Source: a virus
DNA length: 24,007 bases
Virus record (IMG/VR): IMGVR_UViG_3300034198_014928
Location: 1-24,007 of that record
Direction: 5' to 3' (one strand)
The position numbers were made by a program, and so were the translations under genes. Below the pieces are notes generated by a model that had not been told where the DNA came from, did not search any database, and saw only the letters and a list, made by a program, of their open reading frames with translations. Positions 7,164 to 10,967 of the stretch are shown here, piece after piece. Within the stretch, counting starts at the first letter, position 1. Each line of letters starts with the position of its first letter.

Positions 7164-9830
7164 ATGGGAAACCTCAACGAGGCGGCCCGCGGACGCTGGC
7201 CTGGAATCCTTGCGTCCCTGGCCGGCTTGTCCGACCAGCAGCTGTCAGACGTTCACCAGCCCTGCCCCCTGTGCGGCGGCGAGGACCGCTACCGCTTCGA
7301 TGACATCGATGGCTCCGGCTCTTGGTTCTGCAACCGCTGCGGCGGCCGCAACCAGACCGGCGGCGCCGGCACCGGCATGGACATGCTCATGCGACGCACC
7401 GGCTGGTCTTTCAAGGACGCAGCCACCCGCGTCGAGCAGCACCTGGGCATCGCCCCGCAAACCGTGCAGGCCCAGGCCAAGGGCCGCCCCGCTCGCACCC
7501 CTGACCGCCCCCCAGCTGACGCACCACCCCCGCCCCTGGACGGTGCTGCTGCTCAGTGGCCCTACACCGACAGCAGCGGCGCCACCCTGTTCTGGATCCA
7601 GCGGGTCAACCTGCGGAAGTCCGGCGGCAAGCTGTTCCTCCACCGCACCTGGATCGATGGCGCCTGGCATCGCCCCAGCAAGAACGACGCCTTCACCTCC
7701 GAGTGGCCCGCACCTCGGCCGCCCTATGGCCTGCACCTGCTAGCCGAGCGGCCTCAGGCCAGTGTGCTCATCGTCGAGGGTGAGGGCACTGCGGACGCCG
7801 CAAGGGCCCTCTTCCCGAACGTGGTCATCCTCGCATGGTGCGGCGGCGCCGGGGGCGTGCTCCGCACTGACTGGTCTGCCCTGGTCGGCCGACGGGTGGC
7901 CCTGTGGCCCGACAACGACGCCCCCGGCCTGCGCACCATGGCCAAGCTTGCGCAGCACCTGCAGGGGCTCGCGCAGGCCCCGACCGTGCGGATCGTGCTG
8001 CCGCCGGCCGATGCGCCTGAGAAGTGGGACCTGGCCGATGCCACCGACTGGACCCCAGCCCATGCCGTCGCGCACGTCAAGGCCAGCACCACCGCCGACG
8101 TCCAGGCCTTCATCGATGCTCACCTGGCACCGGCGCAGCCGGAGCTGGCGCCAACACCCCCCACGCCCGAAGACCCGCAGCCCGCACCCGTCCCCTCCGG
8201 CACCGGCGGTCACTTTCGTTGCCTGGGCTTCGATGGTGATGACTTCTTCTACCTCCCCAGTGCCACCGGGCAGGTCGTGCGCCTCACTGCAGCGCAGCAC
8301 GGCGGCTCCGGCCTGCTTCGCCTGGCTCCCCTGCCGTTCTGGGAAACGCTCTACCCCGGCGGCCGCGGCGGCGTGAACTGGAATGCTGCCATGAGCTCGC
8401 TCTACCAGCAGCAGGCCACGGTCGGCGTCTACGACCCTGATCGCATCCGCGGCCGCGGCGCATGGCGCGACAACGGACGGGTCGTGTTCCACCTGGGCGA
8501 TCGCCTCATCGTGGACGGGCAGGCGCACAGCGTCCTGTCCCCACCGAAGACCCGCTACTTCTACGAGCAGGCCAGGCAGCTCGACGGCCCATCCGATACC
8601 CCCATGGACGACGACACCGCGGCCACCATCCGCGCCATCGCAGAGCGGTTCCGCTGGGAGGTGCCGGCAACCTTTCACCTCCTGCTCGGCTGGATTGTCC
8701 TGGCCCCTGTCTGCGGTGCCCTGGCCTGGCGCCCCCACATCTGGATCACCGGTGGTGCAGGCACCGGCAAGACCACCATCCTCAAGCTGTTCATCCACCC
8801 CCTGCTCGGCGGCATCGTGCAGTCGGCCACCGGTGGCACCACCGAGGCCGGCCTCCGCGGCACCCTCAAGTCCGACGCCATCCCCGTCGTATTTGATGAG
8901 TTCGAACAGAACGAAGCCAAGGACAAGACCATCGTCCAGAACGTCCTGGCCCTGGCCCGGATTGCTAGTTCCGAGGGCGGCAAGATCTACAAGGGCACCA
9001 CCTCAGGCGGAGCCAACTCGTTCGAGATTCGCAGCATGTTCTGCGTCAGCTCGATCAACGTTTCCCTGGTGCAGAAGGCCGACATTGATCGCTTCTGCGT
9101 CCTGGGCCTGCGCAACGCCGGCATGGATAAAGAAGAGTGGCGCGAGTTCCATACCGACATCACCAACGCCTGCACCATTGACGCCGGCCGGGCACTCATT
9201 GCCCGCACCGTGGGGCAGATCCCCACCATCACCGAAAACTCCCGCGTCCTGGCGCAGGCCCTGGGGCGCCGCTTTGGCCAGCGGTTCGGCGATCAACATG
9301 GCACCCTGCTCGCTGGTGCATGGTCCCTTGAGCCCGGCGGCGGCGGCCTGCTGTCTCTGCAGCAGGCGGAGCAGTGGCTCGACCAGATGGATTGGGAGCA
9401 GGCCCAGACCGACTCCACCGATGCCGATGAGGTGAAGTGCCGCGACACCATCCTGCAGGGCCTGGTCCGCATCGGTGGCGGCATGGAGGCCAGCATCGGC
9501 GAGCTCGTGCAGGCTGTGGCCTATCAGCAGATGCTGCACGAGGTGACCTCCTGGTCTGCCCTGGAGCCGGTGCTGGCCCGCCATGGGCTCAAGGTCTACC
9601 GGCCCGGGACCAGGCTGCCGGACAAGGAGCTGACCGACGGCTACTGGCTGGCCGTCAGCAACACGAACCTCCAGCTAAGGCAGGCCCTGCGCGACACCCC
9701 CTGGGCCAATGGCAGCCACAAGAGCAGCCTGCGACGCCTGCCGGGTGCACTGGTGCCGCGGAACCCGGTCCACCTGGGTTCGACGTCCAATCGGGTGACG
9801 CTGATCCCCTTGCCGGACCCAAGCCCTTGA
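7164..9830 (+). CDS. Primase-helicase fusion: zinc finger, TOPRIM and DUF927-type ATPase
   Basis: This 888-residue protein is the likely replication initiator, priming and unwinding phage DNA. Residues 30-62 form a primase zinc domain (CPLCGGEDRYRF ... WFCNRCGG, Cys 34, 37, 56, 59). Residues 200-256 form a TOPRIM domain with VLIVEGEGTADAA supplying the catalytic Glu and ALWPDNDAPG the Asp pair. A Pro-rich linker (about 322-346) leads to a DUF927/superfamily 3-like ATPase with Walker A GGAGTGKT (530-537) and Walker B IPVVFDEFE (573-581). The rest is helical. The order matches P4-alpha-like and DUF927 replication proteins of phages and plasmids. The start at 7164 follows the previous gene by six bases, and a terminator hairpin and a repeat-rich candidate origin follow. 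Confidence 0.92.
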   Translation: MGNLNEAARGRWPGILASLAGLSDQQLSDVHQPCPLCGGEDRYRFDDIDGSGSWFCNRCGGRNQTGGAGTGMDMLMRRTGWSFKDAATRVEQHLGIAPQTVQAQAKGRPARTPDRPPADAPPPPLDGAAAQWPYTDSSGATLFWIQRVNLRKSGGKLFLHRTWIDGAWHRPSKNDAFTSEWPAPRPPYGLHLLAERPQASVLIVEGEGTADAARALFPNVVILAWCGGAGGVLRTDWSALVGRRVALWPDNDAPGLRTMAKLAQHLQGLAQAPTVRIVLPPADAPEKWDLADATDWTPAHAVAHVKASTTADVQAFIDAHLAPAQPELAPTPPTPEDPQPAPVPSGTGGHFRCLGFDGDDFFYLPSATGQVVRLTAAQHGGSGLLRLAPLPFWETLYPGGRGGVNWNAAMSSLYQQQATVGVYDPDRIRGRGAWRDNGRVVFHLGDRLIVDGQAHSVLSPPKTRYFYEQARQLDGPSDTPMDDDTAATIRAIAERFRWEVPATFHLLLGWIVLAPVCGALAWRPHIWITGGAGTGKTTILKLFIHPLLGGIVQSATGGTTEAGLRGTLKSDAIPVVFDEFEQNEAKDKTIVQNVLALARIASSEGGKIYKGTTSGGANSFEIRSMFCVSSINVSLVQKADIDRFCVLGLRNAGMDKEEWREFHTDITNACTIDAGRALIARTVGQIPTITENSRVLAQALGRRFGQRFGDQHGTLLAGAWSLEPGGGGLLSLQQAEQWLDQMDWEQAQTDSTDADEVKCRDTILQGLVRIGGGMEASIGELVQAVAYQQMLHEVTSWSALEPVLARHGLKVYRPGTRLPDKELTDGYWLAVSNTNLQLRQALRDTPWANGSHKSSLRRLPGALVPRNPVHLGSTSNRVTLIPLPDPSP

Positions 9831-9897: not shown

Positions 9898-10103
9898 CTA
9901 ACGATCTAACGCAAAACGCCAAATGAAACACACACACCCCCTATTAACCCCTCTACCCCCCTGATCCCCTTTTACCCCCTCTACCCTATGTATCTTTATT
10001 TCTTGTAATTATGGTTAGGTTGTTAGGGGCGGGGTCAAAGCCGTTGCCAGCACAAGGGTTTTCGATCTAACGCTCGGCCTTACGCTTTGCCTGACACCGT
10101 TAG
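9898..10103. other. Candidate replication origin: CTAAC/GTTAG iterons around a pyrimidine-rich, AT-rich tract
   Basis: CTAAC occurs at 9898, 9906 and 10067, and its complement GTTAG at 10014, 10022 and 10099. The first two and the middle two are tandem pairs with an 8-base period, in opposite orientation, flanking about 100 bases. The 11-mer CGATCTAACGC is repeated exactly at 9902 and 10063, and CCCCTCTACCC at 9948 and 9976. Between them, 9985-10020 is AT-rich in an otherwise GC-rich genome and could melt easily. It lies next to the primase-helicase gene. The same tract could instead hold the promoter for 10257-10967. It fills most of the 426-base non-coding stretch 9831-10256. Confidence 0.5.
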
Positions 10104-10256: not shown

Positions 10257-10967
10257 ATGCTGCGCATCGACATCACCGACACCATCAAGCCCGCTATCGC
10301 CAAGCTCGGGCAGCTCACTGACGTCCAGCTCCGCTACGTCGTTGCCAGTGCCATGACCGAGGCGGGCAAGGCGGCGCAGGAAAGCCTCAAGCAGTCCATG
10401 CCCCGCTACATCGACAGGCCCAACCCCTGGACAATGGGCTCCACCTTCGTCCAGTTCGCCAAGGCCAGCGACCTCACCGTCACCGTGGGCATCCGCGATC
10501 AGGACCGCCGCGGCCGCACCGGTGCCGGGAAGTACCTCGCTCCCCTCATCACTGGCGGGCCGCCCCGTCCCAAGGGCGCTGACCTGTCCGCTTCCGCACT
10601 GGCCGGCACCCGCGGCGTCCTGGTCCCGGCTCGTGGGGCCGTTCGCCTCAACCAGTACGGCAACGTCAGCCTCTCCAACTACGCGAAGATCCTGGGCAGT
10701 GCCCGGGCCAAGGACGCCGGCATCTACGTCGCTCCCGTCAAGGCAGGCCTCTCCACGAAGGCCGTGTTCCAGCGGAAGACCGGCTTCCTCGGGCGCACCT
10801 CCACCCTCGATACCACCACTCGGCGGCTGTTCACCATCGACCCCACCCCCAAGGTGCGGACCGCACGATTCCCCGTGACGCGAATCCTGGAGGACGGCTT
10901 CCGAGAGGCGTTCCCCAACCTGCTCCGCACTGGCCTCCAGGCCGAGCTGGCCAGGCACTTCCGCTGA
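10257..10967 (+). CDS. Putative phage virion or tail-assembly protein (236 aa)
   Basis: The ATG at 10257 follows AAGGGGG with nine bases between. The N-terminus (MLRIDITDTIKPAIAKLGQL) continues with a helix SAMTEAGKAAQESLKQSMPRYI, as in minor tail / gpZ- or gp10-like proteins. The middle has GKYLAPLITGGPPRPKGADL, SASALAGTRGVLVPARGAVR and LNQYGNVSLSNYAKILG, a pattern I recall from phage proteins annotated as hypothetical or minor tail. The C-terminus (FPVTRILEDGFREAFPNLLRTGLQAELARHF) looks like an assembly helix. It is isolated, flanked by non-coding regions with hairpins, away from the other virion genes. The structural call is inference; that it is coding is well supported. Confidence 0.55.
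   Translation: MLRIDITDTIKPAIAKLGQLTDVQLRYVVASAMTEAGKAAQESLKQSMPRYIDRPNPWTMGSTFVQFAKASDLTVTVGIRDQDRRGRTGAGKYLAPLITGGPPRPKGADLSASALAGTRGVLVPARGAVRLNQYGNVSLSNYAKILGSARAKDAGIYVAPVKAGLSTKAVFQRKTGFLGRTSTLDTTTRRLFTIDPTPKVRTARFPVTRILEDGFREAFPNLLRTGLQAELARHFR

Follow-up and report, generated by a model that had tools for sequence, protein, structure and literature searches.

Repeat array behind the primase-helicase gene

The replication origin is known for only a minority of metagenomic phages, and a dense group of short repeats beside a primase-helicase gene in the viral record IMGVR_UViG_3300034198_014928 raises the question of whether an origin, together with the protein that reads it, can be recognized there. 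The repeats occupy positions 9898‒10103 of the window, i.e., the whole analyzed stretch of 24,007 nucleotides. On the comparisons given below, we consider it highly likely that this region is a phage replication origin whose iteron array is recognized by the upstream-encoded primase-helicase through its C-terminal domain.

The array lies in a gap of 426 nt (9831‒10256) between the primase-helicase gene (7164‒9830, plus strand) on the left and a tail-protein gene (10257‒10967) on the right, in agreement with the earlier note, which had called the region noncoding and adjacent to the primase-helicase gene. It begins 68 nt past the primase-helicase stop codon. CTAAC or its complement GTTAG occurs nine times in the window, and six of these copies are located within 9898‒10103, at 9898 (+), 9906 (+), 10014 (−), 10022 (−), 10067 (+), and 10099 (−). 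Dinucleotide shuffles of the region contain 0.69 copies on average, and none of 2000 reached six, which bears out the earlier claim of a count far above expectation; six copies of any 5-mer not composed of G and C only appear in 2% of the shuffles. As in iteron-type origins, short repeats are clustered beyond chance in noncoding DNA, and an AT-rich element is located beside them.

The two opposed tandem pairs of 8-base period that the earlier note had described were found at 9898/9906 (forward) and 10014/10022 (reverse), with C/pyrimidine-rich and AT-rich stretches between them. The full repeat unit is longer than CTAAC, (T)CTAACG in the window and NNNACG across relatives. The left block consists of two CTAACG iterons on the plus strand (9898‒9903 and 9906‒9911). 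The C/pyrimidine-rich spacer (9948‒9986) and the AT-rich tract (9987‒10013; 15% GC at 9991‒10010) follow, and the latter is a candidate site of first melting by analogy with PICI origins (PMC6092414). The inner reverse copies on the minus strand, CTAACC (10014‒10018) and CTAACA (10022‒10026), both lack the final G of the unit. The right block contains CTAACG (10067‒10072, plus strand), a seventh, variant copy CTTACG (10079‒10084, plus strand), which is the main word in the related loci L003, L004, L012, and L013, and a reverse iteron (10098‒10103, minus strand) that reads CGTTAG on the plus strand. Both exactly repeated 11-mers of the earlier note are present: CGATCTAACGC starts at 9902 and 10063, the second copy enclosing the iteron at 10067, and CCCCTCTACCC, as read from the sequence, forms direct repeat D2 in the spacer (9948‒9958 and 9976‒9986).

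Immediately upstream, a GC-rich hairpin followed by CTTTCT (9855‒9898, plus strand; inverted repeat I3 with 16-nt arms, 88% complementary) probably ends the primase-helicase transcript, as judged from its sequence. The fold of 9831‒9905 has an energy of −30 kcal/mol. L015 and L030 have similar hairpins, but not every relative does, and the hairpin is absent from the list produced by a simple terminator scan. A search of the region against Rfam returned nothing relevant.

Conservation of the array in related loci

Since the intergenic DNA has no match among sequenced phages, conservation was sought through the protein. Two scans of IMG/VR yielded about 95 distinct related loci, with 64 non-redundant viral representatives. 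A clustered iteron array is located within 450 nt past the primase-helicase stop codon in almost all relatives, and for the 64 representatives the density of each locus's own word in the 470 nt that follow the gene is 56 times that found elsewhere in the loci (434 copies in 29.9 kb and 150 copies in 581 kb, respectively). In the shared layout, a forward block and an inverted or mixed block are separated by a spacer, which is AT-rich wherever it was read. Measured from the stop codon, the forward pair is found near +50 to +80 and the reverse copies near +160 to +200, with ~100 nt of spacer between them; a mixed group with steps of ~10‒11 nt occupies +220 to +260.

The words differ by phage and are usually preceded by T, with CTA, CTT, CTC, ATT, CAT, GTA, GTT, GTC, or GTG before ACG. 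Exact CTAAC is present in a minority of relatives (e.g., L008, L015, L028, L030, L033, and Synechococcus phage S-H1), and in several loci its pair of 8-nt period keeps the distance behind the stop codon seen in the window (+67/+75 in L008 and L033, and approximately so in L015 and L030). In other relatives, CTAAC is replaced at the same place by another hexamer of the same form. The absence of CTAAC from most relatives seemed to refute the origin until these other words emerged. Of the conservation in related phages to which the earlier note had tied its reading, the place and the two-block layout are retained, but the exact word is not. Most loci are clearly above their own shuffles, whereas L033, L072, L075, and L103 are not by a simple count, and weak arrays are seen in some relatives (e.g., L072, L075, L103, L131, and L133). 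Behind the gene in the distant Bordetella PY223, Pseudomonas ZRG1 and Dolphis, and Microcystis Mwe-JY13, no clear array was found.

Covariation of residue 870 with the first base of the word

Only DNA was used to assign a word to each locus. In a subsequent alignment of the C-terminal sequences, each column was tested against the first base of the assigned word. The column of residue 870 (His in the window; codon at 9771‒9773, plus strand) is unique among 480 columns in that each of its residues is confined to one word class. Among the 64 representatives, Arg870 occurs with a G-first word in 44 of 44 proteins, and His, Trp, or Tyr (12, 5, and 3 proteins, respectively) occurs with C or A in 20 of 20. 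The rule holds in 95 of 95 when all loci are counted. The normalized mutual information with the first base is 0.68 for column 870 and 0.38 for the next column. The word class switches six times on a tree of the helicase only and at least three times on one built from the C-terminal domain without column 870, and the word and residue 870 switch together at each change. Because trees of short domains are uncertain, three changes is the safer figure. L112, with Arg870, and L117, its closest relative with a C-type word, share 75% identity in the C-terminal domain.

Arg‒guanine is the commonest specific contact between proteins and DNA. Since the replacement word tracks one residue of the protein, the array is tied to the primase-helicase beyond plain conservation; together with the arrays found at the same place in relatives, this favors the assignment of the iterons to the adjacent primase-helicase that the earlier note had made. 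We read the covariation as strongly pointing to recognition of the word by the protein, which by itself does not demonstrate an origin. As a candidate partner of the word's third base, T875 showed only a weak association with C and is not claimed, and the same column comparison gave no clear partner residue for the remaining bases.

Two further patterns were noted. Very similar proteins with His870 (L005, L002, and their relatives compared with L003 and L012) have ATTACG or CTTACG arrays, and the two words are sometimes mixed within a single array. The first base seems to be free between C and A under His870, and words seem to drift where no Arg pins G. The distantly related Acinetobacter phage Acjo_20 (L122), with an Arg at the 870-like position, has a GCGTTACA-type repeat upstream, not downstream, of the primase-helicase gene, and the position of its origin with respect to the gene may have shifted.

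Tests of the rule outside the training set

For loci in bacterial genomes, the rule was fixed beforehand. Sixteen of these loci have a significant NNNACG array, and 14 obey the rule, some of them being near copies of training loci (e.g., L128 and L139). The strongest repeat of the two exceptions, L165 and L173, is not of NNNACG form; that of L165, an Arg protein, is TGTCCCC and fits the rule. L173 and L192 were left out since their words are palindromic and the first-base class is ambiguous. Ten distant or variant members also fit (L124, L142, L156, L158, L164, L165, L166, L169, L174, and L175). The distant members include Arg proteins with TGTTACC (Bdellovibrio phage phi1422), TGTAACC (L175), and TGTGAACC (L174), a Lys protein with TGTTACC (L156), and Tyr proteins with TCTTACC (L166) and TCTGACA (L169); because these words were oriented by eye, they are support rather than proof. 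Distant primase-helicases of the family include K-, S-, and N-types.

In a reverse test, IMG/VR was searched for paired words without any protein information, and the matches were then searched with profiles of the helicase and C-terminal regions, with counts limited to proteins outside the training set. Among the matches listed, all five new proteins near TCTAACG/TCTTACG pairs have Tyr, Trp, Trp, His, and Tyr at position 870, and all 13 near TGTTACG/TGTAACG pairs have Arg, so that the 18 further proteins found from DNA all conform to the rule, with words located ~40‒300 nt past the stop codon. This 5:13 split would arise by chance once in 8568 if residues were independent of words, a figure that assumes independent proteins although some are close pairs. 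L437, in which Arg and a G-type pair agree, was not counted, its site being 3.6 kb distant. Among the matches listed, 63 of the 71 DNA matches to TCTAACG pairs have no helicase, probably reflecting chance occurrences of a 14-base pattern in so large a collection.

The array of the window, with TCTAACG as its unit, probably belongs to a broad family in which origin words and initiator appear to diversify together under the residue rule.

The primase-helicase and its C-terminal domain

The primase-helicase (888 residues) has a zinc-ribbon primase N-terminus, a Toprim-type core (DUF6371), an AAA+/D5-like helicase region, and a C-terminal domain. Pfam detects Zn_Ribbon_Prim (3e-13) and DUF6371 (2e-9) and nothing else, the PHROG match is "DNA primase" (7e-120), and the AF2 model matches DnaG cores. 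A Walker-type GGAGTGKT motif is present. The helicase region has low confidence in the AF2 model, no library settled its class, and we call it D5-like by inference only.

The C-terminal domain (residues 752‒888; 9417‒9827, plus strand), which we propose to bind the iterons, is modeled with a mean pLDDT of 92.8. Its helices and strands are arranged in a way that would suit a winged helix with a second helix-strand unit after it, and residue 870 falls in a predicted strand. No relative of the domain was found in Pfam, PDB sequences, or PDB folds, and Foldseek against the PDB gave no solved DNA-binding relative. All PDB matches, including the winged helices of heat-shock factors, have a probability of at most 0.13; therefore, no fold is claimed. 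Confident structural matches are limited to the end regions of two other phage proteins: a Synechococcus phage S-CAM8 protein and an 838-residue protein of the same length as the phi1422 primase.

The closest isolated phage is S-H1 (46.8% identity), and the closest bacterial loci are from uncultured cyanobacteria and Cyanobium. Therefore, the host is probably a Synechococcus/Cyanobium-type cyanobacterium. Several copies of the primase-helicase gene with an array are present in the single assembly of Cyanobium sp. Cruz-8D1 (L126, L127, and L141), and more than one in that of Vulcanococcus sp. Clear-D1 (L136 and L137), which suggests that a single host contains several prophages or phage-derived elements.

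Proposed mechanism and alternative explanations

In the proposed mechanism, iterons of the form T-X-N-N-A-C-G would be recognized through residue 870 (here His), which would set base X, with Arg870 demanding G and His, Trp, or Tyr going with C or A. Several copies of the C-terminal domain (residues ~752‒888) in a multimer would bind the left forward pair and the right reverse or mixed copies. This binding would load helicase rings to the left and right of the AT-rich tract, the DNA would open at the tract between the blocks, and the primase domain of the same protein would then start synthesis. We infer binding, ring loading, melting, and priming strongly because of the precedents of SaPI Rep, SCCmec Cch2, PICI origins, and PLE RepA discussed below. 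The GC skew, which the earlier note had suggested as a check, gives weak support at best: the cumulative skew of the window is lowest near 11 kb, but in S-H1 no extreme coincides with the array, and the skew was not used as an origin marker because the minimum is not reproduced there. In S-H1, the origin would be expected at about 17.68‒17.95 kb of MK105819.

The array might be an operator, bound by the primase-helicase or a repressor mainly to control transcription across the gap into the late genes instead of to start replication. On its left is a replication gene and on its right one of tail type, there is a hairpin resembling a terminator, and plasmid iteron arrays often double as operators. 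However, 9600‒10500 contains no sigma-70-like promoter, the word tracks a residue of a replication enzyme, and the downstream gene varies among relatives while the array stays behind the primase-helicase gene. Two blocks around an AT-rich tract are, moreover, the layout of PICI origins (PMC6092414), and we regard the operator as improbable. Still less credit is due to a centromere-like partition site for the ParB-like protein encoded 1.2 kb downstream (11284‒11889; Pfam ParB_N, PHROG ParB-like). The gene is close by, and centromeres made of iterons exist elsewhere. In S-H1, however, the array persists with no annotated ParB-type gene in its surroundings, and it is the primase-helicase with which the word covaries. 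The closest PHROGs of the ParB-like protein are, moreover, nuclease/partition families of ParB-like phage proteins and DNA methyltransferase families, not proven partition proteins.

The match between residue and word might be a matter of inherited linkage, with residue 870 marking lineages without touching DNA. Codon 870 and the array are only ~125 bp apart in the window, and related sequences are not independent. However, the match is perfect in one column of 480 only, and His, Trp, and Tyr occur in separate clades, all with non-G words, while Arg occurs with G in all. The rule also extends to new, distant proteins that were reached solely from DNA words, and no specific contact between proteins and DNA is commoner than that of Arg with guanine; we consider linkage unlikely as the explanation. 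That the array merely reflects composition, a low-complexity intergenic stretch repeating a 5-mer, has next to no likelihood. The spacer contains many C-runs, and there are repeats of other words, but the shuffles never reach six copies of CTAAC, and arrays of conserved layout in nearly all relatives already contradict a chance origin. Recognition of the array by the C-terminal domain as part of a replication origin remains our preferred reading.

Comparison with known systems

Iteron origins read by the C-terminal domain of a helicase are of an already known kind. According to PMC7581432, SaPI Rep recognizes, through its C-terminal domain, iterons that directly follow the helicase gene, and the corresponding domain of SCCmec Cch2, a D5/MCM-like helicase, binds 5-nt AAGTG iterons directly behind its gene. 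PICI origins always contain two iteron sets around an AT-rich region, and the PICI pri/rep-ori supports plasmid replication in E. coli (PMC6092414). The present locus resembles SaPI and PICI elements in that the helicase, there sometimes fused to a primase, is encoded directly upstream of the origin (PMC6092414; PMC7581432). The array directly follows the gene here and likewise in relatives, and its two iteron sets flank an AT-rich region. SaPI and PICI elements are satellites without virion genes, whereas we are dealing here with a phage: a minor-tail-type protein is encoded in the window, further ORFs are read from their sequences as large terminase, portal, and capsid, and complete phages such as S-H1 are among the relatives. 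The locus also differs from them in combining a zinc-ribbon/Toprim primase with a helicase and a C-terminal domain that has no Pfam or PDB match, and in that its iterons are short NNNACG words with a first base linked to a single residue.

SCCmec Cch2 shares the short iterons directly downstream of the helicase gene but has three direct iterons only and a separate polymerase/primase, and no word diversity is reported in the passages of PMC7581432 consulted. In the Vibrio PLE, the DNA-binding domain of the initiator RepA covaries with the origin between elements, and the divergence of the iterons is an escape from the phage origin-directed nuclease Odn (PMC8263062). Initiator and origin vary together here as well; however, the RepA_N domain is N-terminal and unrelated, the PLE iterons are semi-palindromic and ~30 bp long, and the covariation there arises by module swap, not through a single residue. 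The origin of pRN1 is likewise located directly downstream of a replication-protein gene, that of ORF904, but is a stem-loop of 100 nt instead of an iteron array (PMC4234260). P4 alpha is named as a parallel in PMC6092414. Within the 3‒10 kb flanks seen, neither the window nor most loci contain a second cluster of the word. Phage P4 requires two separated sites (ori and crr), and its iteron words and binding domain differ from those here; the likeness is that alpha unites primase, helicase, and origin binder in one protein, as is proposed for the present primase-helicase.

In the open-licence literature, no description was found of the phage primase-helicase family, its C-terminal domain, or the one-residue code; since the literature covered was limited to such papers, the novelty of the code is provisional. 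We give an even chance to the view that the C-terminal domain represents a hitherto undescribed type of DNA-binding domain, whose recognition code is simple and evolvable and would serve a large family of phages and prophages to diversify origin words so that co-infecting relatives avoid cross-firing or escape origin-directed attack. Here the probable origin, its reader protein, and a specificity rule are obtained from sequence alone; therefore, origins may be located in phages with this primase-helicase, and the word class may be read from one codon. The family offers a clean case for why initiator‒iteron pairs diversify, be it through incompatibility, satellite parasitism, or origin-directed nucleases, and the C-terminal domain is a good target for a first structure.

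Neighboring genes in the window

The ORF at 10257‒10967, to the right of the array, resembles minor tail proteins. The ParB-like protein (11284‒11889) is encoded directly upstream of DNA-modification genes. Given that its top PHROG matches are to ParB-like nuclease/partition and DNA methyltransferase families, it is as likely to act in DNA modification or as a nuclease as in partition. The modification genes form a 7-deazaguanine cluster (11882‒16099) that encodes a queuine-tRNA-ribosyltransferase/DpdA-like protein (11882‒12757), QueC with an N-terminal glutamine-amidotransferase-like part (12757‒13971), FolE (about 14004‒14639), a QueD-like protein (14636‒15085), and QueE (about 15450‒16099). 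In phage 9g, Gat-QueC and DpdA insert deoxyarchaeosine into DNA (PMC6884629). Since the QueC fusion of the window resembles Gat-QueC of 9g, the phage may, by analogy, carry modified guanines. On the minus strand, opposite to the replication genes, a recombination pair is encoded at 1939‒3714, a RecT-like annealing protein (below the Pfam cut-off) beside a DUF3799/PD-(D/E)XK exonuclease-like protein.
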